Part shown: positions 1,713-25,527 of the stretch, in pieces
Position numbering within the stretch: the stretch's first letter is position 1
Layout of the letters: every line of letters begins with the position of its first letter
From: Promethearchaeota archaeon
GTDB taxonomy: Archaea; Asgardarchaeota; Lokiarchaeia; Sigyniarchaeales; SOKP01
Direction of reading: 5' to 3'
Assembly: GCA_014730165.1 (NCBI GenBank)
Contig: WJIS01000368.1
Location: forward strand, 1-35,501
Length of the DNA stretch: 35,501 nucleotides
Notes under the pieces: generated by a model
The model's database searches: none
The model's input: only the letters and a program-made list of their open reading frames with translations
Told to the model about the DNA's origin: nothing
Position numbers and translations under genes: made by a program

Positions 1713-3125
1713 TTATATATATGTATTAATTAAGTCAACTAAATTAGATGAGAGGGACGGTAAATTATTCTCTATTGTTTGAATCTTAACCTGATCATTA
1801 ATTAGCAAGAGTAGATATAGATTATATTTATCGACTTTGATTCTTTTAAAGATAAGATTTTTCGAATCGTCTGTAATTCCTGATGATATTATAAAATCTT
1901 CTTTTAATAATTTAAATTCTTTAAAAGTTTTATATAAAGTTTGGAAATGAGGCGCGGAAATTTCAAAAACTTTTTCGGAAACAGCATCGGTGGAAAAATT
2001 AGATAAGATTATACCATTCTCATTTAAAAGAAGTAATGCATCAGTGTTAGTTTTTTGAGCGAATCCTCTTAATTGGTGTTTAAATAGTTCGCGATTGGGA
2101 CTCAATTGAGATAATCCATAAGAATAGGCAGAGATTAAGGACCAATGTGCGAAGATAGAGGTTTTAAATATTTTTACAAAATAATTATTTGCTATTTGTG
2201 GTATTTTTTCAGTAAAGTATTCAACATTCTTATTGATTTCTTCTGTTTCTTTAATATCTGGATCATATTTATTCAGACATACAACTATGGGTGGAAATTC
2301 GTCTAATTCTCTCAATGTCATTATTATCCTTCGTAAAAGTGAGAGAGCTTCATTTGATCTTTTAGTATCTTGGATATCTATGAAAAAGAAGAGTAAATCA
2401 ACATTATAAAGATATATCTTACTTTGATTGAAATATCGTTCAAGATATCGTTTTTGCCCACCTAAATCCCACACGATAATCTTTGACAGATCTTCTGAGA
2501 TAATATCCTCTTTAGATCGATTTACTCCTTTTGTTGGCAAAGTTTTTATAATTTCAGAATACTTTTTTTTTACACCCAATAGAAATGAGCTCTTTCCCGC
2601 TTTGTCGAGCCCAGCAAAAATAATCTTTATCGTTCTTTTTGTAGAAAACGGATCTTTAAGTTCGCTTGCGAAATTGAATAGCTCTTCTTTTAGATCTACT
2701 AATATTTCATTGTATTTCTCTCGTTCTACTCCTTCTTGGATTCTTGTTGCTGCCCTATCAATAATAACCCTTAAATATTTCATATTTTCGTAGAAAAATG
2801 ATTTATTATTTTCATCCACAAGAACCGTAATTGTTGCCGCTTTCGCATTTCCTCTCGCATTTGGATCTGCAATTAAAAAGAAATAAGTCATTCCATTTAG
2901 ATTTAAATCAGGAAATGGGATGATGCCAAAATAATTAATTCCTTCAACGCCAAAACTGTCTTGATATGTTGAGTCCCCCATCAATAGACTGATTGTCTTT
3001 ATAGCGATATTCATTTGTGCCATTTGTTCAAGAGATTCTGGCCAAAAAGATATTGGATTTGGACCATCATTATCAAAAATACTTAGCACCAATGCTTGGA
3101 TGATATTTTCATTGTTAATTTTCAT
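1713..3125 (-). CDS. Arf/Rag-like GTPase with N-terminal longin-like and C-terminal roadblock-like domains (GTPase A)
   Basis: This 470-residue protein carries a central Ras-superfamily G domain of Arf/Rag character. The P-loop is G-L-D-K-A-G-K-S (172-179), the switch I Thr is in P-T-K-G (T198), switch II is W-D-L-G-G-Q (219-224, with the Arf-like Gln), the base-recognition motif is N-K-Y-D (285-288), and K-T-S-I (321-324) fits G5. Residues 1-150 form an alpha/beta domain resembling longin domains. Residues 350-470, with T-D-A-L-L-L-L-N-E-N-G-I-I-L-S, resemble a roadblock domain. It is paralogous to the proteins at 5358-6308 and 14081-15586. Domain flanking on both sides suggests self-contained regulation or dimerisation. 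The longin and roadblock assignments are by pattern and need structure prediction; the GTPase call is firm. Confidence 0.88.
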   Translation of the reverse strand: MKINNENIIQALVLSIFDNDGPNPISFWPESLEQMAQMNIAIKTISLLMGDSTYQDSFGVEGINYFGIIPFPDLNLNGMTYFFLIADPNARGNAKAATITVLVDENNKSFFYENMKYLRVIIDRAATRIQEGVEREKYNEILVDLKEELFNFASELKDPFSTKRTIKIIFAGLDKAGKSSFLLGVKKKYSEIIKTLPTKGVNRSKEDIISEDLSKIIVWDLGGQKRYLERYFNQSKIYLYNVDLLFFFIDIQDTKRSNEALSLLRRIIMTLRELDEFPPIVVCLNKYDPDIKETEEINKNVEYFTEKIPQIANNYFVKIFKTSIFAHWSLISAYSYGLSQLSPNRELFKHQLRGFAQKTNTDALLLLNENGIILSNFSTDAVSEKVFEISAPHFQTLYKTFKEFKLLKEDFIISSGITDDSKNLIFKRIKVDKYNLYLLLLINDQVKIQTIENNLPSLSSNLVDLINTYI

Positions 3126-3320
3126 GATTCAATCAAATAATAGGCCGATTAGGTTTTTTTGAAATTACTACTATTTAGATATTTAGTAATTGAATTGATC
3201 CATTTTTCTATATTAAGAATATATTATTGTAATAAAAATCTAGCTCAGTAGATAAGATTTTATATTAACTATTTTATGAATTTTCAGTAATTAAATTAAT
3301 AGATCATAAGACTCCCTTTC

Positions 3321-3328
3321 TTTAAATA
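3321..3328 (+). promoter_or_regulatory. TATA box for the nuclease-like gene, probably leaderless
   Basis: TTTAAATA is centred about 26 bases before the ATG at 3351, the normal distance from an archaeal TATA box to the transcription start. This predicts a leaderless transcript, in line with the absence of a ribosome-binding site before that ATG. A pyrimidine-rich CCCTTTC precedes it rather than a clear BRE. Confidence 0.45.
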
Positions 3329-3350
3329 AACGTTTTTATTTCTTAACCTA

Positions 3351-4139
3351 ATGAGAAATAATAGTTCGAAAATGAATTTAACTCAATTTTTTCGAGAACT
3401 TTTTAAGATCTTAAAAGAGCAAAATGTTGAAATTATAGAACCATGGATAAAAATTTTTGAGATCCCTTTTTTAACTAAGTTTAATGAATATGATTTAGAT
3501 TATTTTATAGATTCCTTCGATTTTATCAAAAAGGAGAAATGGAATCACATATCTGTGAACAAGATACAATTTATATTTGAATCAATGAAATACATACATC
3601 CAGATATTAAAAATCTCTCAAAATTATTAGATTTTAGATGTTTTGAAAAATTGGTAAAATCCATTTTACAATTAAATGGATATAATGCATTAAATAATTT
3701 TTATTTTTCAGATAAATCAGAGTTAAAGAGAAAAACGAACCAGAAAAGGTATGAGATTGATGTAATAGGAGTAAAAAACAGACACTTGTTATTAATCGAT
3801 GCAAAACAATGGAAAAAACGAGAACCATATCAAGCTTTAAATAATGCAGCGAATACGCAACTCCAAAGAACTATTGCCTTGAATAACAATCGAAATATTC
3901 TTTCAAGTATTATTTTTGACTTAACTAATGGGAAAGTGAATCTTAAAAAAATGCTTCCTCTTAATTTAATCCCTCTCATGGTCACATTAGAGGAAAACAG
4001 ACTTAGGATTAATGATAATCAAATTCCTCTTGTTTCTATATACAAATTTAATTCATTTCTTCAAGAGTTGGAACTGAATCTTCAAAATTTTAACATAATA
4101 AAGATAAATAATCTTTCTATTCAAAAAACATTATCCTAA
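3351..4139 (+). CDS. PD-(D/E)XK nuclease-like protein (Mrr/Holliday-resolvase type core)
   Basis: The 262-residue product has a divergent N-terminal half followed by a restriction-endonuclease-like core. The signature is F-E-K-L-V (E99), then E-I-D-V-I-G (D137), then L-L-L-I-D-A-K-Q-W (D150, K152), which matches the E...D...D-x-K metal-binding and catalytic arrangement of Mrr-like and related nucleases. A helix with N-T-Q-L-Q-R-T follows the core, as is usual. Substrate is unknown: it could be a solitary restriction or repair nuclease. No methylase gene lies nearby. It is divergently transcribed from GTPase A. The call rests on motif order only; the N-terminal 90 residues are not recognised. 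Confidence 0.65.
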   Translation: MRNNSSKMNLTQFFRELFKILKEQNVEIIEPWIKIFEIPFLTKFNEYDLDYFIDSFDFIKKEKWNHISVNKIQFIFESMKYIHPDIKNLSKLLDFRCFEKLVKSILQLNGYNALNNFYFSDKSELKRKTNQKRYEIDVIGVKNRHLLLIDAKQWKKREPYQALNNAANTQLQRTIALNNNRNILSSIIFDLTNGKVNLKKMLPLNLIPLMVTLEENRLRINDNQIPLVSIYKFNSFLQELELNLQNFNIIKINNLSIQKTLS

Positions 4140-4151
4140 TTTAGCTTAGAA

Positions 4152-5171
4152 TTATAAACCTAAGTATTGTTTAATTTGCTTTCTCACATGATAAATAGCG
4201 ATATTAATAATCCCACTTTTAACCTTTGGATGCGAAAAAATAATTAAAATCATATTCTTCAGTGAATCTGTTTTGGTGTCTATTGGAGCAAGATCGAGTA
4301 CTCCCTCCGTTCCTTTTACAGATATTGATTTTAATGTTCCAGCATTCAACCCTTCAATAATATCTGTCCCGATCATAGACAAATTTTGCCCTATTGTTGC
4401 AAATAGTGAATCTGAAATACGATCGGAAATTGCTGATGCAAGAATAGTTCCATCTGTTTTTATTATCGCTGAAGCTTCTATTTGAATATCAATATTAAGT
4501 AGTTGGCTCAAAATTTCGTTCATACTTTCTGGTTTGATCTCTTCTTTAACTGAGTCAGCTTCTTCTCTTGATTCTGCAGTTTTGGATTCATATTTCGGGA
4601 GGTCTAATTTTTTTGAGAGAACGGATAAAACATTTAGCATATCTTCTTCCAATTGTCGTTTCTTATTATGTGGAGTTGTTCTTGATTGAGTATTTACATC
4701 TTGAGCCTTTTCGCTAATAATTGGATCGTCTTGTCGTTTTTTTTGTTGTTTTGAGCTTGAAGAATAATTTGTAGACATAACAAATCCATCATATGGGCTT
4801 GGTTCAATTTCTTCTAAAGTTTTTTTATTATAACTCTCTCGAAAATCATCTTGATCATGTAATTCGTTATTAATTTCTTCACTATTAGATTCTTCCAAAG
4901 GAATATCTTGCAAATCTAAATCAGCTTTCTCCTCTTTAGTTTTTTTTTGAGAAAAGAATGATGCTTCAGCATAAGCTTCGGGGATATTATTATTATTATT
5001 TTTTTGTTCTTTTGACGTATTTTTCGATTCTGATTTGTTTTTTTTTTCTTTTTTAGTTGGAGAAACTCTCAATCTAGGAGGTCTGGATGATATTGGTAGC
5101 AGTGCACCACATTTACGACAAATTTTTGTCGTTTCATCATTTGTAGAGCCACAATTTGGACAAATTATCAT
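4152..5171 (-). CDS. Zinc-ribbon protein with C-terminal roadblock/LC7 domain
   Basis: The start is taken as the ATG at 5171-5169 because GGAGAG sits 9 bases upstream and the product then begins directly with a zinc ribbon, M-I-I-C-P-N-C-G, with the second pair C-R-K-C-G; the frame is open to an ATG at 5216. The 339-residue product has a long acidic and Lys/Ser-rich linker (about residues 30-200, probably disordered) and a C-terminal domain of about 120 residues that looks like roadblock/LC7: I-E-A-S-A-I-I-K-T-D-G-T-I-L-A-S and later I-S-V-K-G-T-E-G-V-L-D-L-A. Roadblock domains dimerise and act as platforms or GTPase-activating factors for MglA/Rag/Arf-type GTPases. The upstream co-oriented gene is GTPase B, 186 bases away, a plausible partner by inference. 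Confidence 0.8.
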   Translation of the reverse strand: MIICPNCGSTNDETTKICRKCGALLPISSRPPRLRVSPTKKEKKNKSESKNTSKEQKNNNNNIPEAYAEASFFSQKKTKEEKADLDLQDIPLEESNSEEINNELHDQDDFRESYNKKTLEEIEPSPYDGFVMSTNYSSSSKQQKKRQDDPIISEKAQDVNTQSRTTPHNKKRQLEEDMLNVLSVLSKKLDLPKYESKTAESREEADSVKEEIKPESMNEILSQLLNIDIQIEASAIIKTDGTILASAISDRISDSLFATIGQNLSMIGTDIIEGLNAGTLKSISVKGTEGVLDLAPIDTKTDSLKNMILIIFSHPKVKSGIINIAIYHVRKQIKQYLGL

Positions 5172-5357
5172 TTTCCATATCTCTCCTTTACATTCGCGAA
5201 AGTCTACTAAAATCAATAGAAATTACAATTCTTCTTGTTAATAAAATTTATTGATTGTTTTCAATATAGTATAAAGAATATATAAAAATCCCAGTATTTA
5301 TTAGTTTTTGTTAAATCATAAAGATTTCGATTCATATACAATTTTAGAATAATAGAT

Positions 5358-6308
5358 CTACTTATATAGAAGTTCTCGTAAGAGATTGCTGAGTGAATTG
5401 ATATCTCCCTTATCAAAATCTGGTTTTTCTTTCACAAGTAGTAAATAATAGGGAGGTATATCTTCATGTAAAAATATTTGTTTAAATATGAAATATCTCC
5501 CGTCCCTCTGAACCATTACATGGTTTTTAATTCTTTCATTCGCAGTGAGATTTTTATCAACAACATGAAAACTATCATGCAAAGTTAAGAAATAGGGCAT
5601 TGAGGCGTTAAGGATGTTCTTTGTAAACTCATTTTTATAATAAGAGCCAATCAACAAAGAATTATCATCTAAAATCGCGACGCCATCACTCTTAACCTTT
5701 CGTGCAAATTCAGTAATTGTTTTATCTATTAAATCTGCTTTAGGATAAAGTGAAAGTAAAATTTCTGACATAGCTTTTATAAGAGTAGGAAATTCATAAA
5801 CAGAGGTATTGTAAAAGTATAATTCTTCATGATCTATAGAGTTTTTTATTTCTTGTTTAAGATTTACGATTAAATCAGAATATTCACTATAGGCACTTTT
5901 AGATAATACAGGATCAAATTTATGAAAGAATATATAAATAGGAGGAGCAATTTCAAGTTCATCTAATTTCTTCATTACATCTTTTAAATAACTTAGAGAT
6001 TCATTTTTCCTATCTTTATCTTGGATATCAATAACATAAATCAATATTTCTGTATTATCAAAATATTTATTTGGATTCTTTAAATATGAGATACGATAAG
6101 ATTTTTGACCACCTAAATCCCATTCACTAATATTTTTTCCTAAGAATTCGAAAATTCTTCTTTGTGCTCCTCTTGTAGGAGATAAAATGGCTATTTTTGA
6201 GAATTCTCTTTGAAGAGCCATTATTATTGAAGTTTTACCCGCTGTATCGAGACCTGTAAATAGAATTTTTTGAGCTTCATGGTCTTCATCGTTTAGATAA
6301 TTAATCAT
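5358..6308 (-). CDS. Arf/Rag-like GTPase with C-terminal roadblock-like domain (GTPase B)
   Basis: This 316-residue paralogue of GTPases A and C starts almost at the G domain and lacks their N-terminal longin-like domain. Motifs are G-L-D-T-A-G-K-T (19-26), P-T-R-G with switch I Thr (T45), W-D-L-G-G-Q (63-68), H-K-F-D (129-132) in place of N-K-x-D, and N-T-S-V (167-170). The last 120 residues contain D-G-V-A-I-L-D-D-N-S-L-L-I-G-S, matching the C-terminal domain of its paralogues. The start is supported by GGTGA 6 bases upstream. The Asn-to-His change in the base-recognition motif may alter nucleotide affinity. It lies just upstream of the zinc-ribbon/roadblock gene in the same orientation. 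Confidence 0.87.
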   Translation of the reverse strand: MINYLNDEDHEAQKILFTGLDTAGKTSIIMALQREFSKIAILSPTRGAQRRIFEFLGKNISEWDLGGQKSYRISYLKNPNKYFDNTEILIYVIDIQDKDRKNESLSYLKDVMKKLDELEIAPPIYIFFHKFDPVLSKSAYSEYSDLIVNLKQEIKNSIDHEELYFYNTSVYEFPTLIKAMSEILLSLYPKADLIDKTITEFARKVKSDGVAILDDNSLLIGSYYKNEFTKNILNASMPYFLTLHDSFHVVDKNLTANERIKNHVMVQRDGRYFIFKQIFLHEDIPPYYLLLVKEKPDFDKGDINSLSNLLRELLYK

Positions 6309-6396
6309 AGATTTTCACCATTTCCATAAATAAAGCATTCAAACCTTTATTAGATAATAATTAAGATCTCTATGATGATATATTAATTTTTGTTCA

Positions 6397-7746
6397 TTAA
6401 TAATTGTTTAACAAAAATGTCTTAAAATCATCATAAGAAGTAATAATGAGAGAATTCCGGATTTCTTTAGATTTCTTTATTTTTTCCAATGTAGAAGGTA
6501 ACTTGGGTTTAATACTTATTAAATTAATTATTTCAGTTGGAAATTTTGCAGGATCAGCTGTTTCAAAAGTTATCGATTTAACATTATTCTGACGAACTTT
6601 ATCACCAAAATAATTTTGAAGCCCCTTCCATCCGACAGCTCCATGTGGTTCTATTATTTTTTGATAATTTTCGTAGAAATTTTTAATAGTTTTTTTTGTT
6701 TCTTCATCACTTATCGAGTAAGACGCTATTAATTCACGAATGTTATCCATATCTGGTTTTTTTATTATCCTACCTTCCTCATCCATATGTCCTCCAAACA
6801 AATCAATTAATCTTGCTAAATTGGACGGATTGCCGACATTCATCGCATTTGAAATACAGTTCCTGGAAGGTTCAACTTTTTCATACTTTCCTGTATTAAG
6901 GAAATTTGGAAACTCATCATTTTCATTTACAGCTGCAATAAATTTTTTAACCGGAAGACCCATTTTATGAGCGATAAGTCCACCCATCAGATTTCCAAAA
7001 TTACCTGACGGAACCGAATAAATAACTTCTTCTCCCTTAAATTCAACAATCCTTGAATAACTCCAGAAATAATATATCGTCTGAGGAAGTAATCGTCCAA
7101 AATTAATAGAATTAGCAGAAGATAAATTGAGATGATTTAAATCCTCATCAGCAAATGCCTTTTTAATATATTTCTGACAATCATCAAATTTTCCTTGTAT
7201 TCCAATTGAGACAACATTCCCACCTAAAGTTGTCATCTGTTTTCTTTGTAATTCTGAGATCTCGTTTTCTGGATAAAGAATTACAACTTTTAAGTTGGAT
7301 CTATTATGAAATGCTTGAGCTACGGCACCTCCGGTATCACCTGAAGTAGCAGTTAAAATGATAGCTTCTTTATTCTCTTCATTTAAAAAATATTCCATAA
7401 TTCTAGCAAGAGTACGCGCCCCAAAATCCTTAAAACTGCAAGTAGGGCCTCGATCTAAATAACATATATAATTATTTTGGTTAATTTTTTCTACTGGTAC
7501 TTTAAAATTCAATGCATCCTCAATTATAGATTCAAATCTTTTTTTTGGAATTGATTCTCCGACAATAAGAGACAAAACATTTTTAGCTAATTGGGGAAGG
7601 TCAAATTTTTTAAAATTAAAAATTACTTGCGCATCTAACCTTGGAATTTGATTGAGCATATACAAACCTCTATCCAAGGCTTGGCCTCTAAGGATAGCAG
7701 TCTTGAAATTCACTTCGTTGGAATTAAAGTTAGTAGAATGAAACAT
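6397..7746 (-). CDS. thrC: Threonine synthase
   Basis: This 449-residue protein is a PLP-dependent threonine synthase, converting O-phosphohomoserine to threonine. The PLP-binding Lys is in P-T-C-S-F-K-D-F-G-A-R (K106), and the phosphate-contacting loop T-S-G-D-T-G-G is at 134-140. Further family motifs are G-x-x-G-N-V-V-S-I-G-I-Q-G and S-G-N-F-G-N-L. The short N-terminal region with Y-M-L-N-Q-I-P fits the bacterial-type thrC form with an N-terminal extension. It follows a small conserved gene by 11 bases on the same strand, so the two are probably co-transcribed. Homoserine dehydrogenase, the enzyme two steps earlier, is encoded about 3 kb away. Confidence 0.95.
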   Translation of the reverse strand: MFHSTNFNSNEVNFKTAILRGQALDRGLYMLNQIPRLDAQVIFNFKKFDLPQLAKNVLSLIVGESIPKKRFESIIEDALNFKVPVEKINQNNYICYLDRGPTCSFKDFGARTLARIMEYFLNEENKEAIILTATSGDTGGAVAQAFHNRSNLKVVILYPENEISELQRKQMTTLGGNVVSIGIQGKFDDCQKYIKKAFADEDLNHLNLSSANSINFGRLLPQTIYYFWSYSRIVEFKGEEVIYSVPSGNFGNLMGGLIAHKMGLPVKKFIAAVNENDEFPNFLNTGKYEKVEPSRNCISNAMNVGNPSNLARLIDLFGGHMDEEGRIIKKPDMDNIRELIASYSISDEETKKTIKNFYENYQKIIEPHGAVGWKGLQNYFGDKVRQNNVKSITFETADPAKFPTEIINLISIKPKLPSTLEKIKKSKEIRNSLIITSYDDFKTFLLNNY

Positions 7747-7757
7747 TGATTAACTAA

Positions 7758-8003
7758 TTAAAATTTCCCAAAAAAATTTGTTATTTCGAAATAAAGCTTT
7801 TTTTCTTCATTATCAACTTTTAAAGTTAAAAAATCATATATCTTATCACATTCTTTTATAAGCATTTGCTTAAGCAACTTGTATTCTCCGAATCGCTTTT
7901 TGATTACATTATATTCTTCATGAACTCCAACAGAATTATCACAGTCCTCAATTATTATTGCCTTTTCCAAACACGATCCATCTCCTCCTGAAACGCGTAC
8001 CAT
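7758..8003 (-). CDS. Small conserved protein of unknown function with S-G-G-D-G-S motif
   Basis: The 81-residue product begins M-V-R-V-S-G-G-D-G-S-C-L-E-K-A-I and ends with I-T-N-F-F-G-K-F. The order S-G-G-D-G-S, a central E-E-Y-N-V-I-K-K-R-F-G segment, a Y-D-F-L-T-L strand and a terminal F-x-I-x-x-F-F-G-K resembles a small uncharacterised family seen in diverse prokaryotes, but I cannot name it. The length looks complete. A TATA-like element at 8031-8040 predicts a very short leader. It lies 11 bases upstream of thrC, so it is likely the first gene of a two-gene unit; a role in threonine synthesis is not implied by its sequence. Confidence 0.7.
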   Translation of the reverse strand: MVRVSGGDGSCLEKAIIIEDCDNSVGVHEEYNVIKKRFGEYKLLKQMLIKECDKIYDFLTLKVDNEEKKLYFEITNFFGKF

Positions 8004-8030
8004 TTATTTCTCATCCCATATATTAATGAA

Positions 8031-8040
8031 TATAAAAATA
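8031..8040 (-). promoter_or_regulatory. TATA box for the small gene and thrC unit
   Basis: On the minus strand this reads TATTTTTATA, centred about 32 bases before the ATG at 8003, which predicts a leader of about 7 bases. There is no other candidate closer to the start. Confidence 0.4.
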
Positions 8041-8265
8041 TTCTAACCAAATATATTGATACATGAACTTTAATTTATATTTTGTTATTTAATTTATGAA
8101 TCTAAAATTATATTGCAAATTAACTTAAAAATACTAAGAATTGAGGAAGAAATCATCTATGAGTTATCTTATCCTTTATTAAGGTTTTCTCAATTTTAAC
8201 AATTGGTAAAAGCATTTATGATCGAATTATTGTATCCTAATATGATTTTTAATACATAAAAAGAA

Positions 8266-8275
8266 TATTTAAAAA
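8266..8275 (+). promoter_or_regulatory. TATA box for the Cys-rich small protein gene
   Basis: TATTTAAAAA lies about 59 bases before the ATG at 8330. Transcription would start near 8296, leaving a leader of about 34 bases that contains the ribosome-binding site AGGTGA at 8318-8323. Confidence 0.4.
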
Positions 8276-8329
8276 TAATTATACTTCATACCTAATAACA
8301 CTAATTTAAAATTATTAGGTGAAATCAAT

Positions 8330-8485
8330 ATGGTTAGTTGTGAAGAACTTAAGAAGGGAGATACTTTTGTTTGTGAAGACTGTGGTTTAGAACTTACTGT
8401 AACTGAAGCTTGTGATTGTGCTGAAGAAGCTTCATGTTCAGAAGAAGGTTTTGCCTGCTGTGGAAACCAGATGCATAAAAAATAA
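8330..8485 (+). CDS. Desulforedoxin-like small Cys-rich metal-binding protein
   Basis: A 51-codon gene starts at ATG 8330 with AGGTGA six bases upstream and ends at TAA 8483-8485. The peptide starts M-V-S-C-E-E-L-K-K-G-D-T-F-V-C-E-D-C-G-L and ends F-A-C-C-G-N-Q-M-H-K-K. The C-x-x-C (C15, C18) and the adjacent C-C-G (C43, C44) copy the iron-binding pattern of desulforedoxin and of the N-terminal domain of desulfoferrodoxin, so a mononuclear Fe or Zn tetracysteinyl site is likely. It has four extra Cys (C4, C28, C30, C36) that desulforedoxin lacks, enough for a second site. The role is probably electron transfer or oxidative-stress defence, by inference. A T run follows at 8514-8526. Confidence 0.75.
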   Translation: MVSCEELKKGDTFVCEDCGLELTVTEACDCAEEASCSEEGFACCGNQMHKK

Positions 8486-8513
8486 ATCTCATATTTCAAG
8501 CTTTTAAATTAAA

Positions 8514-8526
8514 TTTTTTTTTTTTT
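8514..8526 (+). terminator. Oligo-T terminator after the Cys-rich small gene
   Basis: An uninterrupted run of 13 T lies 28 bases after the stop at 8485, just before the convergent ClC gene. Archaeal transcription commonly ends at such T runs without a hairpin. Confidence 0.45.
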
Positions 8527-8590
8527 AGATTTCTACACTCTTATTTTTGCTTTAGCTCAACTATACCTCAAATAAATCAAGTTTAAAATT

Positions 8591-9931
8591 TTACATATAT
8601 CTTTGTTCGGGGATAATGGAGGATGGACCGCTAAATATGTATGCAAAAATGGTTGTAATTCCCGCGGGAATAAATAAAAAAGGAACCCATGTCATTTCAA
8701 TGATAATAAAAATAGCTGTAATTGGATTATTGGTTGCTGCTCCTAAAACGGCAGAAATTCCTAGAATAATGAATAATTCATAATTAGAGGGATAAACTAA
8801 AAAGCCAAACGCCCCTCCTAGTAAAGTTCCTAATAATATTAATGGAAGTATAATTCCAGCTGAATTAAAAGTACCAATTGAAAGGAATATCGCTATAACG
8901 AATATTAAAGTGAAAAACAAAATCAAATACCAGGATACATCTGCTGTCTGGAAACGTTCCACTAAAATGGTTAGAAAATCGGAATCAGCATGCAAAATAA
9001 TATTATGGAAATCAGAGTCAATGAATGGGAGAACAATTACTAAGAATATTGAATATCCAACAGCTCCAAGGAATGGTAGAAGCCAGAAAATCCGCTTTTT
9101 ATTCAAATATCGACTGAGGGTGTTTTTGTATCCTCGTAATAAACCCATAAATATCAAAACTATTAAACCAACAATGATCCCAAATATTGCTGTAATAGGA
9201 AGTAGATAAAGGTAATTAATATCATTAGGATTTAATGATTGATGTAGTTCTAAGAAGGGAGTATAACCAAAGAATAATGAAAAAATCAAGTAAGCTACAG
9301 TTGAGGCAATTATTGAAGGAATTAAGGATTGATACTTAATGTGATTATTATATGGTAATTCCGCACAGAATAGCGCTCCACTAATAGGAGCTTTCAATAT
9401 TGCTCCAGTACAAGCACTTGCTCCAATAAAGAATGAATCCTTTCTTTCTAACTGGAACCTGTCAGATTTATATAACAAATAACCTAAATTTCCTCCAATT
9501 AATAGACCAGGTCCTTCCAAACCACATATCATTCCCGAACCGAAAGTCCATGATGTACTTAAGGTTTTTGCAATAAGATTCTTAAATCGTCCGTATTTGT
9601 CTTCTGCTATTGGAAAATTCTCTACTTCTAGCAAGTTAATGTCCTCTACGAATTCTGAAGCTCCCGTTCCCATTATTCTATTTAATTTTCCAAATTTTAC
9701 TAAAAGACTTGTAGCAATACCAGCTATAATAGGGGGAATATAAAAAGGTAGAAATGAAAAACTCAATTCAAATAAAGACAAAAGATAATTAAATACAACC
9801 ATTACTAATCCACAAATTGCGCCTAAAACGATTGAAACAAGAATAACATCAAAAGATTTTCTTAACCAAAATTTTTGAAGTCGGAAAAAATCTTTAAGAT
9901 GTTTAATATTTCGTGCATCACTTTCTGTCAT
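8591..9931 (-). CDS. ClC-family chloride channel or chloride/proton antiporter
   Basis: The 446-residue polytopic membrane protein shows the three ClC selectivity signatures: G-T-G-A-S-E (88-93, matching G-S-G-I-P), G-L-E-G-P-G (137-142, containing the gating Glu, E139), and G-T-F-N-S-A-G-I-I-L-P (353-363, matching G-x-F-x-P). Another typical stretch is G-A-S-A-C-T-G-A-I-L-K-A-P (170-182), followed by F-C-A-E. No C-terminal CBS domains are present, so it is the short form. It should move chloride across the cytoplasmic membrane; channel versus antiporter cannot be settled by reading alone. It is the last gene of a minus-strand run, 23 bases after the LOG-family gene. Confidence 0.92.
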   Translation of the reverse strand: MTESDARNIKHLKDFFRLQKFWLRKSFDVILVSIVLGAICGLVMVVFNYLLSLFELSFSFLPFYIPPIIAGIATSLLVKFGKLNRIMGTGASEFVEDINLLEVENFPIAEDKYGRFKNLIAKTLSTSWTFGSGMICGLEGPGLLIGGNLGYLLYKSDRFQLERKDSFFIGASACTGAILKAPISGALFCAELPYNNHIKYQSLIPSIIASTVAYLIFSLFFGYTPFLELHQSLNPNDINYLYLLPITAIFGIIVGLIVLIFMGLLRGYKNTLSRYLNKKRIFWLLPFLGAVGYSIFLVIVLPFIDSDFHNIILHADSDFLTILVERFQTADVSWYLILFFTLIFVIAIFLSIGTFNSAGIILPLILLGTLLGGAFGFLVYPSNYELFIILGISAVLGAATNNPITAIFIIIEMTWVPFLFIPAGITTIFAYIFSGPSSIIPEQRYM

Positions 9932-9954
9932 TTGAGAAACCTTTCTATTAAATT

Positions 9955-10518
9955 CTAGAATTTATCTATAAAATCAAGATTGGTTTTAGAAGAAAAACCA
10001 ACTTTCAATAACTCGTTTAAATATCGAATTACATCTTGAGGTGTTTTAGCATCATAGATTTTGTCACTTCTTCTCTCATCTATTTTTTTATCAGCTAATT
10101 TATTAGACCAACCCTCAACGCTAGAAAGAGCAATGATTGGTTTTTGATAGATCCAAGCAAAACATATTTCAGATAGTGTTCCTGCTTTTCCACCTATTGC
10201 AACACAAGCATCTCCAGTGAGAACTACAATTAAGTTTCTAGCTTGAGAAAACGGGACGGGTATAGCAATATCAACATACTTATTAGCAACAGATTTCTTT
10301 TTGCTTGGGACAATTCCAACAGTAAATCCATTTTCTTGCTTCGCTCCTTTGCAAACTGCCTCCATACCTCCAAAGAGCCCTCCACAAGCAATAGCAAAAT
10401 TATTTTTAGCTAGCAATTTTCCAATTTCTACTGCTTTTTTTTCAGTATTTTTATCAATTTCGCTCCCACAGATTACGGAAATAATTGCTTTAAACTGTTC
10501 TTTAAATTGAAAAGCCAT
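9955..10518 (-). CDS. LOG-family (TIGR00725-type) Rossmann-fold protein
   Basis: The 187-residue product has the nucleotide-binding layout of the LOG/TIGR00725 group: S-V-I-C-G-S near the N terminus, A-I-A-C-G-G-L-F-G-G-M-E-A-V (43-56), and G-G-K-A-G-T-L-S-E (109-117). The plant and bacterial LOG enzymes release cytokinin bases from their riboside monophosphates, with a P-G-G-x-G-T-x-x-E motif; here it is G-G-K-A-G-T-L-S-E, as in the TIGR00725 branch, whose substrate is not well defined. It sits between homoserine dehydrogenase (39 bases upstream) and ClC (23 bases downstream), likely in the same transcript, with no obvious functional link. Confidence 0.85.
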   Translation of the reverse strand: MAFQFKEQFKAIISVICGSEIDKNTEKKAVEIGKLLAKNNFAIACGGLFGGMEAVCKGAKQENGFTVGIVPSKKKSVANKYVDIAIPVPFSQARNLIVVLTGDACVAIGGKAGTLSEICFAWIYQKPIIALSSVEGWSNKLADKKIDERRSDKIYDAKTPQDVIRYLNELLKVGFSSKTNLDFIDKF

Positions 10519-10557
10519 GTATTTATCAAATTATTAATTTGTTTAAAAATTTAAGAA

Positions 10558-11577
10558 TTAGATATTATCATCCTTTTTTAAGAAATCGCATATATAAAAT
10601 AAATCATTTAAGATTGCGGATGCGGCTTCATAACCCCCAGCACCTCGACCCATAAGTACAATTGAACCCATATATTCTGTTTTTAATTCAATTACATTGA
10701 GTGTACCACTAATGTTTAAAGCAGAATAATTCTCAATTAGCCGAGGTTCCACAATAAGAGAATTGTTTTCTGCGATTGCTAAATGCTTAATGATATATCC
10801 GTCTGATTTTGCTAATTCTATTGCTTGAGGGGTAATTTTTGATATTCCTCTGATTTTAACATCTTGGATTGATTTGGACCAACCCAGTAGCTCGTTCGCT
10901 AATATTACTAATTTACCTGCAGCATCATATCCTTCAATATCAAGTGTAGGATCTGCTTCAGCGTAGCCTAACTCTTGAGCTTCTTTTAAGGCGATTGAGA
11001 AATCTATTCCCTCTGAAGCCATTCGACTGAGAATATAATTAGATGTTCCATTTAATATTGCTCTTATAGCTTTAATCTTACTTGCTCCTAAGCTTTTCTT
11101 TATCGAAAGAATAGGGACTCCAGAAGCTACAGTAGCTTCATATTGAATCAGACACGCATTTTTATTCGCCAATTCTTTGATTTCTTTATATTTTAGATAG
11201 AATGGGCCTTTATTGGAAGCAATAATATGTATTCCATTTTTTATAGCTGCTTTAATATGACTTAAAGCGGGCTCTCCAGTTTCTGGGTTAGTAGGAGTTG
11301 TTTCGATACAGATATCAACATCTATTTTAGAAATCAAATCAAGGGGATTGATATTAAATTTCCAATCATTAAGCTTACGAAAATCTTTATCCATTTCAAT
11401 AACCTTTCTAATATTAAGACCACTTTTATTAACTAAACCTCCATCTATTTCAAAAATACCAACTATAACTATATCAATGTCAAATTTATGCTTAAAAATT
11501 GGTAATTTTTTATTTAGGAGTTCTAAAAAACACTTTCCTACTGTACCTTTTCCTATTAAGCAAATTTTTACTTTCAT
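10558..11577 (-). CDS. hom: Homoserine dehydrogenase
   Basis: The 339-residue enzyme reduces aspartate semialdehyde to homoserine. It has an N-terminal NAD(P)-binding motif, G-K-G-T-V-G-K (9-15), the I-A-S-N-K-G-P-F segment with K123, and the catalytic domain signature E-A-D-P-T-L-D-I-E-G-Y-D-A-A-G-K (207-222), which contains the Asp and Lys used in catalysis. L-N-G-T-S-N-Y-I-L-S (175-184) is also conserved. It lacks the C-terminal ACT domain of many bacterial enzymes, and a separate double-ACT protein is encoded just upstream (113-base gap), which probably supplies feedback control. Together with thrC it forms part of threonine synthesis; no homoserine kinase gene is seen in the window. Confidence 0.95.
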   Translation of the reverse strand: MKVKICLIGKGTVGKCFLELLNKKLPIFKHKFDIDIVIVGIFEIDGGLVNKSGLNIRKVIEMDKDFRKLNDWKFNINPLDLISKIDVDICIETTPTNPETGEPALSHIKAAIKNGIHIIASNKGPFYLKYKEIKELANKNACLIQYEATVASGVPILSIKKSLGASKIKAIRAILNGTSNYILSRMASEGIDFSIALKEAQELGYAEADPTLDIEGYDAAGKLVILANELLGWSKSIQDVKIRGISKITPQAIELAKSDGYIIKHLAIAENNSLIVEPRLIENYSALNISGTLNVIELKTEYMGSIVLMGRGAGGYEAASAILNDLFYICDFLKKDDNI

Positions 11578-11690
11578 TATTTATTCATTTTGATTTCACA
11601 TATATCTGAATAGTATTAAGCTATCTTCCTTAAGTAAAAAATAAAATAAAATATTATCTGAAAAGCTATCTAATGGTTTAAAAAATCTGA

Positions 11691-12182
11691 TTATACTCGT
11701 ATCATCATTAAATTCTTTTCTTCACATATTTTATTCATTTCGTTAATCAAATTCTTTTCGGAAATTGATTCTGGTAACTCTAAACTAAATTTAACCGTAC
11801 TTATATCATCAACTTCAGTAAATCTAGCTTCTAATCCCGTTACAATAATTTTCTTTTTTGCAAGTCGCTTTATCGTATCCACAACGTCAGTGTCAAATAC
11901 ATGACCGGTTAGCAATATGGTTAAATGTCTTTTTTCTGTTCCAAGGGAAATCCTATCAATTTGAATGTTTTCTTTCCGTAGTTCGCTTTTTATACTTTCT
12001 AACGCTTTTTCTCTGAGCTCTTCTGGAAGCTCAAAGGTTAAATCTACCGGGATTAAGTTGTTTATTTTTTTATCATGATGATGAAGGATTCCAAATATAT
12101 TTCCACCATTATTTGAAATTGGTTTAATTAGTTCGATTAAGGTTCCAGGAGTATCTGGTATTTTAACTTCTAAATTTATCAT
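11691..12182 (-). CDS. Double ACT-domain protein, probable regulator of homoserine dehydrogenase
   Basis: The 163-residue product contains two ACT-like repeats. The first begins I-N-L-E-V-K-I-P-D-T-P-G-T-L-I-E-L, with the typical D-x-P-G-x-L turn that binds amino acids, and N-I-F-G-I-L-H-H-H-D after it. The second begins R-H-L-T-I-L-L-T-G-H-V and ends near V-K-F-S-L-E-L-P, with a less typical ligand turn. ACT domains bind amino acids and control enzymes allosterically. Its place next to a homoserine dehydrogenase that lacks an ACT domain suggests it senses threonine for that enzyme, a pairing seen in other archaea. That partnership is inferred from position. Confidence 0.82.
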   Translation of the reverse strand: MINLEVKIPDTPGTLIELIKPISNNGGNIFGILHHHDKKINNLIPVDLTFELPEELREKALESIKSELRKENIQIDRISLGTEKRHLTILLTGHVFDTDVVDTIKRLAKKKIIVTGLEARFTEVDDISTVKFSLELPESISEKNLINEMNKICEEKNLMMIRV

Positions 12183-12216
12183 AATTATAAGGATGTAATT
12201 GAGTATTATCTATGGT

Positions 12217-12945
12217 TTATAAAGGCGATGATGAATCGGGATTATACCGCAAAAACTCGGGTATTCTCTCTCCACATTCGGGACAGAAGCTAAGTCCTTC
12301 TGGTATAACATTACGGCATTTTGGGCACTGAATCTTACCCGATGGTAGACCCTCAATACTTTCATAAGACTCCGGTTCTGTCGGAGATATATATGATTTA
12401 TTCCCACCAGATTTTTCACTTCGCGCAAGAATTACAATAAAAAGAATTGCTAAAATACCAATCATTATAAACATCATCAGATATCCCATTCCTAAAATAG
12501 AATAGTAAGTTTGATTAAAGGAAATTATTCCATTGATATTTAAGTTAAAAAAGTAAGGACCTGGAAGAGTTAGTAGTTTGGGTGCTATTCTGACGGTGAA
12601 GGATTGAGTTTCATTAGAACTGACTAGAGTGAATGTTTGGTTCGTTTTTGAAAATAGAGTCTGTGTTAAAGATTCTTCTAATGAAATATGAATTGATCCG
12701 GATTGATTTGATTTTATATACACTTTAAATTGTGCTTCTAGCCAGATAAATTTGGGAGGTGCTATATTTACACTAAAATTTGCTCCGTTTTGAGAAGACC
12801 TCAAATCATTGGAAATAAATCCTTCATTTTCTTTAAATTGCGAAACTTGAAAGCTAGGATTGAAACTAACAAGGAAAACGGTGAACATTGAAAAAATAAA
12901 TAGCATGAATGTAAAATTTCTTGAGGATTTCATATTAATTTTCAT
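12217..12945 (-). CDS. Membrane protein with extracytoplasmic domain and C-terminal zinc ribbon
   Basis: The 242-residue product has a signal or first membrane segment at about residues 11-28, an extracytoplasmic beta-rich region (31-150) with many N-x-S/T sites, one transmembrane helix (151-174) and a cytosolic tail ending in a zinc ribbon: C-P-K-C (207, 210) and C-P-E-C-G (221, 224). The topology places the zinc ribbon inside the cell. No enzymatic motif is visible. Proteins of this type are common in Asgard and other archaeal genomes, but their role is not known. It lies 22 bases after the AIR-synthase-like gene and 34 bases before the ACT gene, probably in the same transcript. Confidence 0.75.
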   Translation of the reverse strand: MKINMKSSRNFTFMLFIFSMFTVFLVSFNPSFQVSQFKENEGFISNDLRSSQNGANFSVNIAPPKFIWLEAQFKVYIKSNQSGSIHISLEESLTQTLFSKTNQTFTLVSSNETQSFTVRIAPKLLTLPGPYFFNLNINGIISFNQTYYSILGMGYLMMFIMIGILAILFIVILARSEKSGGNKSYISPTEPESYESIEGLPSGKIQCPKCRNVIPEGLSFCPECGERIPEFLRYNPDSSSPL

Positions 12946-12967
12946 TAGTAACTATGTATTTACAAAT

Positions 12968-13948
12968 TTAAAATTTTATTACATCTATAGATTTGTTATC
13001 ATCATGAATTCTTAAAAGATTTTCTTCATCAATTATCTTACCTATTATATTTGCATTCATTCCATATTCTTTGAATGTATGAATCATTTTTTTAGTGTTT
13101 TTTTCCGAAACGGTTAGAATGAAAGACGTTGTTAAATACATTTTTGAGTATAGTTCAAGGGTATATTTGAGTTTCTGAAGAATTGGAGGGATTATTATTT
13201 GGTTTACATTTATATCGATGCCTACTCCAGAATACTTGATTAATTGTAAAGTAGTTCCAAATATTCCACCATTTGATATATCTTTCGCTGCTGTTGCGAG
13301 TTTGAGTTTTGCTATTCGATTCATTGATCTTCTACGTTTCAAAACTGTCTCAGAAGGTTTGAATGTTGTTGTATCAAAAAATAATTTGCTAGCTTTTCCA
13401 ACTCTTCCATCAAAATCTACAGCCAAGATTAGTTTATCTCCAACTTGGGCGCCTCCTGCTGAAATGTAATATTCTTTTTTAATCTCTCCGATCAAAGTCG
13501 AACTAAGTTCATAACATTGTCCATTAGGATTCGTATGGCCTCTAACAATTGGTATTTGAAATTTATTTGAAGCTTCGCTTATACCTTCTAATATTTTTTC
13601 ACCGACATTTGTATTTTTATATGAAAGAATTATACTAGCTGCAAGAGGATTGCCTCCGCAAGCATATATGTCATCCACACTCACTAAAATTGAGCTAAAT
13701 CCAGCTCCAAAGGGATAGTTTTCAATAAATGAGGTGATAATTCTATCAGTTGTTACTAAAATATATGTATCCTTATTTTTAATAGCAGCAGAATCTTCAC
13801 CGAGAGCTGAGAAGATTCTGGAACTTTTGAAAGTATTTGAATCAATATATTTAATAATTGGATTTATTTCTTTTTTTTCCAGAATATTTTTATTCTTTCG
13901 AATTGAACCAGCAATTTTATCTAACATCTTGAATACAAAAAAATCCAA
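12968..13948 (-). CDS. AIR synthase (PurM)-superfamily protein
   Basis: The 326-residue product belongs to the PurM/HypE/ThiL/SelD ATP-binding superfamily. It has A-L-G-E-D-S-A-A-I early on (the acidic Mg-ATP loop), T-T-D-R-I, then a hydrophobic helix with S-V-D-D-I-Y-A-C-G-G-N-P-L-A (PurM-like D-x-x-A-x-G-G-x-P), and G-A-Q-V-G-D-K-L-I-L before the C-terminal domain with D-I-S-N-G-G-I-F-G-T. This order is closest to AIR-synthase-related proteins such as methanogenesis marker 2 and the sll0787 group rather than to purine PurM. Substrate is unknown. The frame allows an inner ATG at 13927. It is the first gene of a six-gene minus-strand run and is divergent from GTPase C. Confidence 0.8.
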   Translation of the reverse strand: MDFFVFKMLDKIAGSIRKNKNILEKKEINPIIKYIDSNTFKSSRIFSALGEDSAAIKNKDTYILVTTDRIITSFIENYPFGAGFSSILVSVDDIYACGGNPLAASIILSYKNTNVGEKILEGISEASNKFQIPIVRGHTNPNGQCYELSSTLIGEIKKEYYISAGGAQVGDKLILAVDFDGRVGKASKLFFDTTTFKPSETVLKRRRSMNRIAKLKLATAAKDISNGGIFGTTLQLIKYSGVGIDINVNQIIIPPILQKLKYTLELYSKMYLTTSFILTVSEKNTKKMIHTFKEYGMNANIIGKIIDEENLLRIHDDNKSIDVIKF

Positions 13949-13975
13949 TTTTATTATAATATATTTATTAAAAGA

Positions 13976-13983
13976 CTTATAAA
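13976..13983 (-). promoter_or_regulatory. TATA box for the AIR-synthase-like gene
   Basis: The minus strand reads TTTATAAG, centred about 31 bases before the ATG at 13948, so the leader would be only a few bases. It lies in the 132-base region shared with the divergent GTPase C gene. Confidence 0.4.
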
Positions 13984-14080
13984 TAGTAATTCAATTAAAT
14001 TCAGCTTAAATAAACTTATTAATGCAAATTATTACTTTCAATAATATAATAACAGAGTTCAAGATATATATTGATTATAA

Positions 14081-15586
14081 ATGGAAAAATTACTTAAGAA
14101 CTCCCTAATCAAAGGATTCCTTTTTAGCATCCATGATGATCTGGGTCCACAAAACTTATATGCGTATCCTTCTCTCATTCAAGAAAGCGAAGAAAGAAAT
14201 ATAGATAGAAACAACTCAAGTTCTCTTAGATTAACTTTTCGAGATGCAATGCAAATTTCCATTAAAAATTTGAGTCTATTAATGAGAGATATGACATGTC
14301 AAGATGATGAAGATTTGGAGAATTTCAAATACTTTGCAATTATACCTTATCCTGATTTTTCATTAACCTCTCTAACATATTTTCATTATATTTCAATTAG
14401 AGAAGATTGTACTCCAATAGAAACTGCTTTTTCTATTCTTATAGATGAGAATAAAAGACATTTTTTATATAATAACCATAATAGCTTAAAGTTAATTTTA
14501 AACGACTTTTTTATCAATTTTGATACGCTTCATCAAGATGAGTTTAAGGAAGAATCAGAAGTAACTCAGGAGTTTGAAAAGCTAATCAAAAAAATAATTA
14601 AGCTCGAAACACATCCAAAAAATCCTATTACAGCTCAACGCAAGATGAAAATTTTATTTTCAGGATTGGATGATTCAGGAAAGTCTTCATTTTTGTTAGC
14701 ATTGGATAGAAAGTTTTCAAAACTTATGGATTTAAAACCAACACGAGGTGCTTCTGTTCAATCAATCCAAGCTTTAGGTGCGAATCTTTTTATTTGGGAT
14801 CTCGGTGGTCAGTCCAAATTTCGAGAAAAGTATATCTCAAAATCAAATATCTATTTATACGAATCCGATTTAATCTTTTATTTCATTGATATCAGAAACT
14901 CTAATAGATTTAATGAAAGTTTAGAGTATCTAAGAACAATCATCGATATTTTGGAATACAAATTAAATCAAAAAACATCTATCATCTTTATACTCTCTAA
15001 AGGAGACTTGGATGTAATAAACAAACCAAACATTAAAGATAATGTAATGTATATTGAGTCTCAAATTAAAGAAATTGTCAAAAAAAAGGATATAGATTCA
15101 TATATTACGAGTATTTTTGAAATAACAACGATTTTGAGAGCCTTCAGCGCGGGTATAGCTACACTTAGCCCAAATCGAGATTTAATAAATTATAATTTGA
15201 AAGGATTCTCAAAAAAAACAAATGTATTCATAACTCTCTTATTAAGTGAAGAAGGACTGGTCCTAGCAAATTTTTATTCCAAAAAAGCATTTAAATTAAT
15301 GCAATCTGACCAGTCTCCTGATGAATTTCAAGATATTTTTGAAATTACAGCACCTCAATTTGCTATGTTATTTAAAATCTTTTCTAAGTTTAAAGCTATT
15401 AAAAAAAGTGAAGCGGTTTTCAACTTTGTGGATTCTTATATCCTTATTAAAAGATTGGAGCTATTTAGCACGCCGATATTTGTTTTATTTCTCATGGATA
15501 ATTTAAATAAAAGGAAAAAAATTGATAAAGAACTACCAAAATTTACAGAAAAATTGAAAGATTTGCTGATAACATATATTTCATAG
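14081..15586 (+). CDS. Arf/Rag-like GTPase with N-terminal longin-like and C-terminal roadblock-like domains (GTPase C)
   Basis: This 501-residue paralogue of GTPase A has the same three-part layout. Residues 1-180 match the A N-terminal domain (shared F-S-I-x-D-D, F-A-I-I-P-Y-P-D-F, and F-S-I-L-I-D-E-N-K). The G domain has G-L-D-D-S-G-K-S (195-202), P-T-R-G (220-223, T221), W-D-L-G-G-Q (239-244), and S-K-G-D (306-309) where N-K-x-D is usual, then T-S-I-F. Residues from about 370 contain I-T-L-L-L-S-E-E-G-L-V-L-A-N-F, the shared C-terminal roadblock-like domain. The shared L-S-P-N-R-D/E segment precedes it. It is monocistronic and convergent with the MtrH-like gene, ending 7 bases from it. 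The longin and roadblock labels are pattern-based. Confidence 0.87.
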   Translation: MEKLLKNSLIKGFLFSIHDDLGPQNLYAYPSLIQESEERNIDRNNSSSLRLTFRDAMQISIKNLSLLMRDMTCQDDEDLENFKYFAIIPYPDFSLTSLTYFHYISIREDCTPIETAFSILIDENKRHFLYNNHNSLKLILNDFFINFDTLHQDEFKEESEVTQEFEKLIKKIIKLETHPKNPITAQRKMKILFSGLDDSGKSSFLLALDRKFSKLMDLKPTRGASVQSIQALGANLFIWDLGGQSKFREKYISKSNIYLYESDLIFYFIDIRNSNRFNESLEYLRTIIDILEYKLNQKTSIIFILSKGDLDVINKPNIKDNVMYIESQIKEIVKKKDIDSYITSIFEITTILRAFSAGIATLSPNRDLINYNLKGFSKKTNVFITLLLSEEGLVLANFYSKKAFKLMQSDQSPDEFQDIFEITAPQFAMLFKIFSKFKAIKKSEAVFNFVDSYILIKRLELFSTPIFVLFLMDNLNKRKKIDKELPKFTEKLKDLLITYIS

Positions 15587-24432: not shown

Positions 24433-25527
24433 ATGAATGAGCGAATTGAGAAAAGTTTTAATGTGGGAATAGTAGGGGAAAATCAAGATATCCTTAAGCT
24501 AATTGGGCAAAGCTTTGGGGCTCCTGGAACAAGATCAGACTTACAGTTTTATAATCGATTGGATGAAGGCATTGGTTATACCTTTTGTGCGATTACTCCT
24601 TTAGATTATCCTAATAAAATAAAACCTCTTTTACAAACTCTTGAAATGACAGATATTTACATTTTAGTAATAGATTTGAATATAGGTCTAAATTCTGCTA
24701 TTGGTGAGCTTTTAATAGCTATTGAGGTTTTTAATCGTTTATATAACAAGGGTGTCATTATAACATTGAGTAATATTCAAAATAACGAGTGGAAAGTTGA
24801 CTCCATATCTAACAAACTGGATAAAATATTAAAAACAACCAGTCTTGTCCAAATTAATATCATTAATTTAAGAGATAAAGCTGATTATCAAATCTTAAAA
24901 GAAAAAGTAGTCGAATTAGGTTTAGAATTGATTGAGCACCAGAAATTAGAAGAAAATAATACCTATACAAAGATCTTAATTGACCACATATTCCCAGTTA
25001 AAGGTATTGGCACTGTAGCACTCTCAATAGTCAAAAGGGGTACCCTAAAAAAAGGGCAACTTCTTGAATTAGTAGGGTTTAACGGAGCATCAAAAAAAGT
25101 CTTAATTAAGAATATTCAAAAACATGATAGAGATTTTAATATTGCTTATGAAAATGATAGAGTTGGATTAGCCTTAAAAGGAGTAAAACATACCGATGTT
25201 TCTAGATATAATCTTATTGCTACTCAGAATATATTTAGAAGTGAATCTGTAATCAATGCTGACTTATTTCTGAGTGAATTGTATATTCCGAAAAAAGGAA
25301 AAATTAGTTCTGATACTGAAAAGGAATTTCACTTAATTGTGAACCTAGGGATTTCTCCCGTTAAATTTCTTGAAACTGAGGAAATTTCCCCTGGAAAGTC
25401 GGGTAAAGTTAAAGTTTCTTTGAAAAAACCATTATTTCATGATGGTTCCGGAATAAGCGGAATTTTAATTGATATGAACAAATTCGAAGGTAAAAATCGA
25501 ATTGTAGGCACCCTAACACAAATTTAG
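24433..25527 (+). CDS. EF-Tu/SelB-like protein with degenerate G domain
   Basis: The 364-residue protein has the shape of a translation GTPase: an N-terminal G-domain-like region (1-180), a beta-barrel domain II (185-270) with V-K-G-I-G-T-V-A-L-S-I-V-K-R-G-T-L-K-K-G-Q, and a domain III-like end with F-L-E-T-E-E-I-S-P-G-K-S-G-K-V-K-V. The nucleotide motifs are lost: the P-loop position reads G-I-V-G-E-N-Q-D-I-L-K, no D-x-x-G is seen, and N-K-x-D is absent. It therefore probably cannot hydrolyse GTP like EF-1A. Related EF-Tu-domain-2 proteins without a working G domain occur in archaea; their role is undetermined. Domains II and III could still bind tRNA or a ribosomal factor. Confidence 0.75.
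   Translation: MNERIEKSFNVGIVGENQDILKLIGQSFGAPGTRSDLQFYNRLDEGIGYTFCAITPLDYPNKIKPLLQTLEMTDIYILVIDLNIGLNSAIGELLIAIEVFNRLYNKGVIITLSNIQNNEWKVDSISNKLDKILKTTSLVQINIINLRDKADYQILKEKVVELGLELIEHQKLEENNTYTKILIDHIFPVKGIGTVALSIVKRGTLKKGQLLELVGFNGASKKVLIKNIQKHDRDFNIAYENDRVGLALKGVKHTDVSRYNLIATQNIFRSESVINADLFLSELYIPKKGKISSDTEKEFHLIVNLGISPVKFLETEEISPGKSGKVKVSLKKPLFHDGSGISGILIDMNKFEGKNRIVGTLTQI

Follow-up and report, generated by a model that had tools for sequence, protein, structure and literature searches.

The Rag and Gtr GTPases of eukaryotes (RagA-RagC and Gtr1-Gtr2) consist of a G domain and a C-terminal roadblock, the latter being their normal dimerisation domain, and human Rag proteins are switched off by the arginine loop of folliculin (FLCN), a GTPase-activating protein (GAP) of the longin-domain class. 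Here we describe a locus of a Promethearchaeota archaeon from the Lokiarchaeia (assembly GCA_014730165.1, contig WJIS01000368.1, positions 1 to 35,501; this whole stretch of 35,501 nucleotides is called the window) in which three open reading frames (ORFs) encode GTPases A, C and B of 470, 316 and 501 amino acids, respectively. We propose, with a probability of about 0.5, that the longin domain of A provides a Rag-type G domain with the arginine finger of a GAP, and that B is its non-catalytic partner.

The arginine in question has been described in several eukaryotic longin GAPs. FLCN Arg164 is the published catalytic arginine finger and NPRL2 Arg78 is found in the same loop (PMC7464330), SMCR8 Arg147 has been observed to point into the active site of ARF1 (PMC8213707), and in Avl9-type GAPs the arginine finger was located “between strands beta4 and beta5” (PMC12803157). 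In FLCN-FNIP, NPRL2-NPRL3 (GATOR1) and SMCR8-C9orf72 one longin carries the β4-β5 arginine and its partner carries none, as in A and B, and for the first two of these pairs the substrates are Rags. However, eukaryotic longin GAPs are separate proteins with a longin followed by a DENN domain, while in A and B a Rag G domain follows the longin within one chain, with no DENN. In comparison to Rag and Gtr proteins, A, B and C share the G domain, the C-terminal roadblock and a RagA-like WDxGGQ switch II, but an N-terminal longin is present only in A and B; the HKxD motif of Rags is shared by C, with NKYD instead in A of the window.

Among archaea, Rag-like proteins of the longin-GTPase-roadblock type have already been reported from MK-D1, with an architecture derived from AlphaFold2 (AF2) only, in a study which also called the pairing of GTPases with GAPs from the genome difficult (Tran et al. 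2024, PMC10933270). These proteins have the same domain order as A and B, come from the same order of Lokiarchaeia and are probably their orthologs; A/B orthologs are also present in metagenome-assembled genomes of Prometheoarchaeum sp. We found no arginine loop, A/B asymmetry or conserved locus in PMC10933270, and no mention of LokiRag in the open literature that we searched, most subscription papers and bioRxiv preprints lying outside this search. As far as we could check in the open literature, there is no earlier description of the arginine-finger loop, of the fact that B has lost it, or of the conserved A/C/B locus.

Domain architecture and kinship of A, B and C

An earlier note, made from the DNA letters alone, had pointed to three ORFs for Arf/Rag-like GTPases with the motif WDLGGQ, the G domain being flanked in two of them by longin-like and roadblock-like domains. 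The ORFs were confirmed at the coordinates claimed (Table 1) and WDLGGQ is present in all three proteins. For each of them the best Pfam family was Gtr1_RagA, above Arf (9e-23 for A, 2.7e-27 for C and 1.3e-19 for B), and a Gtr1_RagA match was obtained for 52 of the 52 A/B orthologs. In alignments of orthologs the P-loop, the switch I motif PTxG and WDLGGQ are kept, together with NKYD in A, SKGD in B and HKFD in C. Foldseek matched A and B to LokiRagO, RagA, Gtr1 and RagC over about 300 residues, which include both the G domain and the C-terminal domain, and to Arfs over the G domain only (about 180 residues). As Gtr1_RagA is their best Pfam family and their long structural matches are Rags, A and B are identified as Rags. 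Membership of A, B and C in the Arf family was ruled out, since the Arf scores were lower than those of Gtr1_RagA and the Arf structural match was limited to the G domain.

The flanking domains were assessed on AF2 models of A and B (mean predicted local distance difference test scores of 80.7 and 82.3, respectively), built from alignments of the window proteins and fetched relatives. In the model of A, the N-terminal domain has the topology b-b-a-b-b-b-a-a, which is that of a longin, and the C-terminal domain has the topology a-bb-a-bbb-a, which is that of a roadblock; B is alike in both. A search with the sequence of the A longin alone (phmmer against PDB) gave nothing relevant, while the profile of the N-terminal domain matched a solved “Longin domain” structure, PDB 8YQG, at 4.7e-4. 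The longin fold of A and B is thus supported by both the predicted topology and this profile match, and we regard the order longin - Rag-type G domain - roadblock as nearly certain for both proteins. The flanks proposed in the earlier note therefore stand, and so does its observation that A and B have in common an N-terminal domain which C lacks. Its further idea, that the C-terminal domain replaces Ragulator, does not, because the roadblock is an ordinary part of Rags and only the longin has been added. C also bears a roadblock behind its G domain, judging by its orthology to 8YL2.

The three proteins had been described as paralogs of one another, which holds best for A and B, as they are sisters in the G-domain tree (support 95/97). 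C belongs to a separate clade, which also holds LokiRagO (8YL2) and two more paralogs from the same genome, and the tree thus rules out a close sibling relationship of C to A and B. A phmmer comparison of C with 8YL2 gave an E-value of 1.5e-82, and on sequence grounds C is an ortholog of LokiRagO, a RagA-like protein without a longin that was deposited as a homotetramer. The source genome contains 18 matches to A. Elsewhere in this genome (L005, G000:C333) a second RagO-type GTPase lies divergently beside a longin-Ras GTPase with an R-R-G loop, so that the two types are paired there once more.

An arginine loop in the longin of A

The Pfam family Folliculin matches the A longin at 4.6e-5, with 23.7 bits, which is just over the gathering cut-off of 23.3, and this match spans β4, the next loop, β5 and α2. 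It was obtained for 36 of the 52 A/B orthologs (best value 1.1e-5), and no Folliculin match was found in 14 control genomes. The loop reads D-P-N-A-R-G in A and D-S-L-A-R-G in FLCN, and when eight Asgard longins were aligned with human FLCN, D-x-x-A-R-G was the same in all of them. In the AF2 model of A, Arg91 falls between the strands formed by residues 76-86 and 94-104, i.e. β4 and β5. The FLCN arginine aligned with it is residue 164 in the numbering of PDB 6ULG chain L; the FLCN query fragment matches that chain in every letter. All 42 A orthologs, some with an identity of only about 38%, have an equivalent of Arg91. By alignment and predicted topology, Arg91 of A corresponds to FLCN Arg164 and occupies the place of the arginine finger in longin-domain GAPs, and we consider the chances that A is a putative longin GAP acting through this residue to be roughly even. 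Where the earlier note spoke of a GATOR-type partner in general terms, the loop, present in the A longin and absent from that of B, offers a concrete candidate residue which that note had missed.

It might also be assumed that the fused longin acts on its G domain as the longins of TRAPP or Mon1-Ccz1 do, either as a guanine nucleotide exchange factor (GEF) or as a sensor of the nucleotide state; these longin-containing complexes are indeed GEFs (PMC9481161; PMC10933270). However, an arginine loop is typical of GAP-class longins (PMC8213707, PMC12803157), and the family returned by Pfam is Folliculin and no GEF longin family, which makes this explanation quite improbable.

Distribution of the loop and its absence from B

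The loop is not a specific feature of A, an idea which was ruled out by its common occurrence in Asgard longins, from which the B clade and a few other longins depart. An equivalent arginine was found in 21 of 22 sampled Asgard longin-Ras/Rab proteins and in 17 of 23 rows of other longins. When 86 non-B longins (effective number about 41) were compared, Gly92 ranked second and Arg91 sixth in conservation among 158 positions.

B keeps other conserved longin positions, namely G21, P22, K43, P70, P72 and D73, while A-R-G is gone in all B orthologs seen. In two B proteins of a second family of genomes (f2) there are arginines nearby (SEVRKRF), in a loop which is one residue shorter. Since only B of the two has lost A-R-G, the asymmetry known from FLCN/FNIP, NPRL2/NPRL3 and SMCR8/C9orf72 is found again in A and B. 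Moreover, because B is the same longin without the loop, and with the other conserved positions kept, the A-R-G loop seems to be dispensable for the fold.

These observations bear on the idea that the longin is only a platform for dimerisation or membrane scaffolding, as are the longins of SNAREs or adaptors, and that A-R-G serves folding or partner binding. On one hand, longins frequently act as platforms (PMC10933270), and the loop is also present in Asgard longins with no GTPase in the chain. On the other hand, this highly conserved feature lies exactly where three eukaryotic longin GAPs have their catalytic loop, and B folds as a longin without it. We thus find the platform explanation rather unlikely, though it is the strongest of the alternatives considered here.

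Longins with the same loop were also seen in other Asgard proteins. Proteins from the genomes of family f20 (G113-G121; L128:1360-2595, L129:1243-2586, L147:1285-2616 and relatives) are about 385-450 amino acids long and have a Folliculin-type longin (Pfam up to 8.7e-8) with the A-R-G loop and no GTPase motifs; their C-terminal part looks DENN-like by eye, with no Pfam match. It is possible that they are free-standing FLCN-like proteins of Asgard archaea. Proteins of 370-440 amino acids from families f18 (L142, L143, L154) and f10 (L132, L135, L144) combine a Folliculin-matching A-R-G longin with unassigned C-terminal parts.

Linkage of the three genes and natural variants

In the family of genomes to which the window belongs (f1), the genes are kept in the order A - 3351 gene - zinc-ribbon roadblock gene - C - 9955 gene - 12968 gene - B. 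Beyond A, a gene for a transglutaminase-like membrane protein (365-1705 in the window) is found in most f1 genomes and also in f2. Two f2 genomes have the same order minus the zinc-ribbon gene, and in two further ones the C-B linkage is kept, with A about 80 kb away in one of them (G042). By our count, A and B occur together in 25 of the 36 f1 genomes, A only in one, B only in three incomplete ones and neither in seven. Between C and B of the window (6397-12182) there are genes for a threonine synthase, a ClC-like channel, a homoserine dehydrogenase-like protein and an ACT-like protein. Several relatives lack all of these genes at the locus, and the amino-acid genes among them were for this reason rejected as a sign of nutrient sensing.

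One natural variant comes from the f2 genome G040 (A at L164:11797-13158, B at L181:1363-2904). Switch I is missing from its A, as is the GGQ of switch II (WDYKPK), and its B no longer has a P-loop, but A retains D-E-L-A-R-G. C is intact (WDLGGQ, HKLD), and its gene stands on one strand with those of the zinc-ribbon roadblock protein and of A, in this order and with short gaps. Because this A keeps the arginine although its own G domain probably cannot hydrolyse GTP, action in trans is favoured: the variant, a single genome, suggests that the arginine is kept independently of A's own hydrolysis, with C as a candidate substrate.

B is less conserved than A (mean column identity of 59% and 68%, respectively), and its switches decay in f2. 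The f2 B with WDIPGQ was considered as a RagC-like protein and rejected, since a sequence search prefers LokiRagO, followed by LokiRagM and Sar1/Arf, and RagC was not among the matches at E<=0.001; we treat this motif, on its sequence, as convergence or decay. In family f4, a standalone Arg-less longin of 169 amino acids is encoded divergently beside A in three genomes (L158:6581-7582, L159:9476-9982, L161:3-524); in G043 it is a truncated ORF at a contig end.

A putative GAP fused to a Rag GTPase

In the mechanism that we propose, A would pair with B, both through the two longins and through the two roadblocks; in genomes without B it would pair with itself. Arg91 of A would then complete a Rag-type active site and speed GTP hydrolysis there. 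The candidate substrates are the G domain of B, that of A itself or of its A partner, and that of the linked LokiRagO ortholog C. The longin of B would be the non-catalytic half, in the role of FNIP, NPRL3 or C9orf72. The earlier suggestion of a self-contained signalling module is plausible.

Several observations speak against this proposal. Unlike the longin GAPs of eukaryotes, A and B have no DENN domain. The x-R-G loop is so widespread in Asgard longins that it could be structural, and a direct comparison of the A longin profile with the FLCN fragment alone (hhalign) was weak (P 0.029). The whole block is collinear, so the linkage is not specific to the GTPases and is weak evidence alone. 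Finally, B is not always there: it was not found in families f3 and f4, and in G007, a genome 99% complete, it is cleanly deleted, with the flanking genes and A intact (L188:7417-8133).

The deletion in G007 rules out an obligatory A/B heterodimer; on the sequences, an Arg-less partner for A is usual, not obligatory. One could go further and assume that A works purely in cis or as a homodimer, B being a redundant, decaying paralog. Its absence from G007 and f4, its lower conservation and the decay of its switches in f2 would fit this assumption. However, A and B occur together in most f1 genomes, an Arg-less longin adjoins A in f4 genomes which have no B, and A of G040 cannot act on itself, provided that its switch II has really been lost. 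We therefore consider it unlikely, even a little more so than the platform explanation, and retain the proposal of a catalytic A longin with B as its non-catalytic partner.

Other features of the window

The coordinates of the three genes and of their domains are collected in Table 1, together with those of the zinc-ribbon roadblock gene. Among ten orthologs of the zinc-ribbon protein, Zn_Ribbon_1 was found in all ten and Robl_LC7 in eight at E<=0.5 (best 3.2e-4). A scan for promoters and terminators, which used bacterial patterns, gave sites no commoner than in shuffled sequence.

Table 1. Positions of the A, B and C genes, their domains and motifs, and the zinc-ribbon roadblock gene in the window.
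Feature	Positions	Strand	Evidence
Protein A, 470 aa: longin - Rag-type G domain - roadblock	1713..3125	-	Pfam, AF2, Foldseek, orthologs
A longin domain, residues 1-158	2652..3125	-	AF2 topology, profile match to 8YQG, Pfam Folliculin
A Arg91 codon, β4-β5 loop motif DPNARG, putative longin-GAP arginine finger	2853..2855	-	
A G domain, residues 164-343: GLDKAGKS, PTKG, WDLGGQ, NKYD	2097..2636	-	
A roadblock C-terminal domain, residues 344-470	1716..2096	-	AF2 topology, Foldseek alignment
Zinc ribbon + C-terminal roadblock protein	4152..5216	-	Pfam in orthologs, synteny
Protein C, 316 aa: Rag-type G domain + C-terminal roadblock, LokiRagO (8YL2) ortholog	5358..6308	-	phmmer, tree, Rag-like HKFD
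Protein B, 501 aa: Arg-less longin - Rag-type G domain - roadblock, sister of A	14081..15586	+	
B longin domain, about residues 1-178	14081..14614	+	AF2 topology; 30% identity to A longin
B β4-β5 loop without A-R-G motif, around IREDCT	14393..14416	+	
B G domain: GLDDSGKS, PTRG, WDLGGQ, SKGD	14636..15172	+	
B roadblock C-terminal domain	15176..15583	+	AF2 topology, Foldseek

Two further regions of the window encode GTPase-like proteins. A small GTPase with no strong family call (31724-32359) adjoins a protein of 182 amino acids (32409-32957) which looks roadblock-like by eye, without Pfam support; the two are possibly an MglA/MglB-like pair. The protein encoded at 24433-25527 has EF-Tu domain 2 as its sole match, and its N-terminal, G-like part has no clear GTPase motifs.

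Implications for the origin of Rag regulation

The finding bears on the question of how eukaryotic Rag GTPases acquired their GAPs. It has been difficult until now to assign regulators to the GTPases of Asgard archaea (PMC10933270), and a longin that is fused to a Rag and has a conserved arginine where the catalytic one would be expected turns a general idea into a question about a single residue. This arginine connects the origins of Rag GTPases, of FLCN/GATOR1 and of the longin fold. It is conceivable, though we would put it somewhat below even odds, that Asgard archaea hold ancestral longin-domain GAPs, that both the arginine finger and the asymmetric pairing are pre-eukaryotic, and that in Lokiarchaeia the GAP became fused to a Rag, A and B being a single-chain forerunner of FLCN-FNIP-Rag which would act on itself or on LokiRagO. 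This suggests that this part of nutrient signalling may have begun in archaea, with the switch and its off-switch fused.

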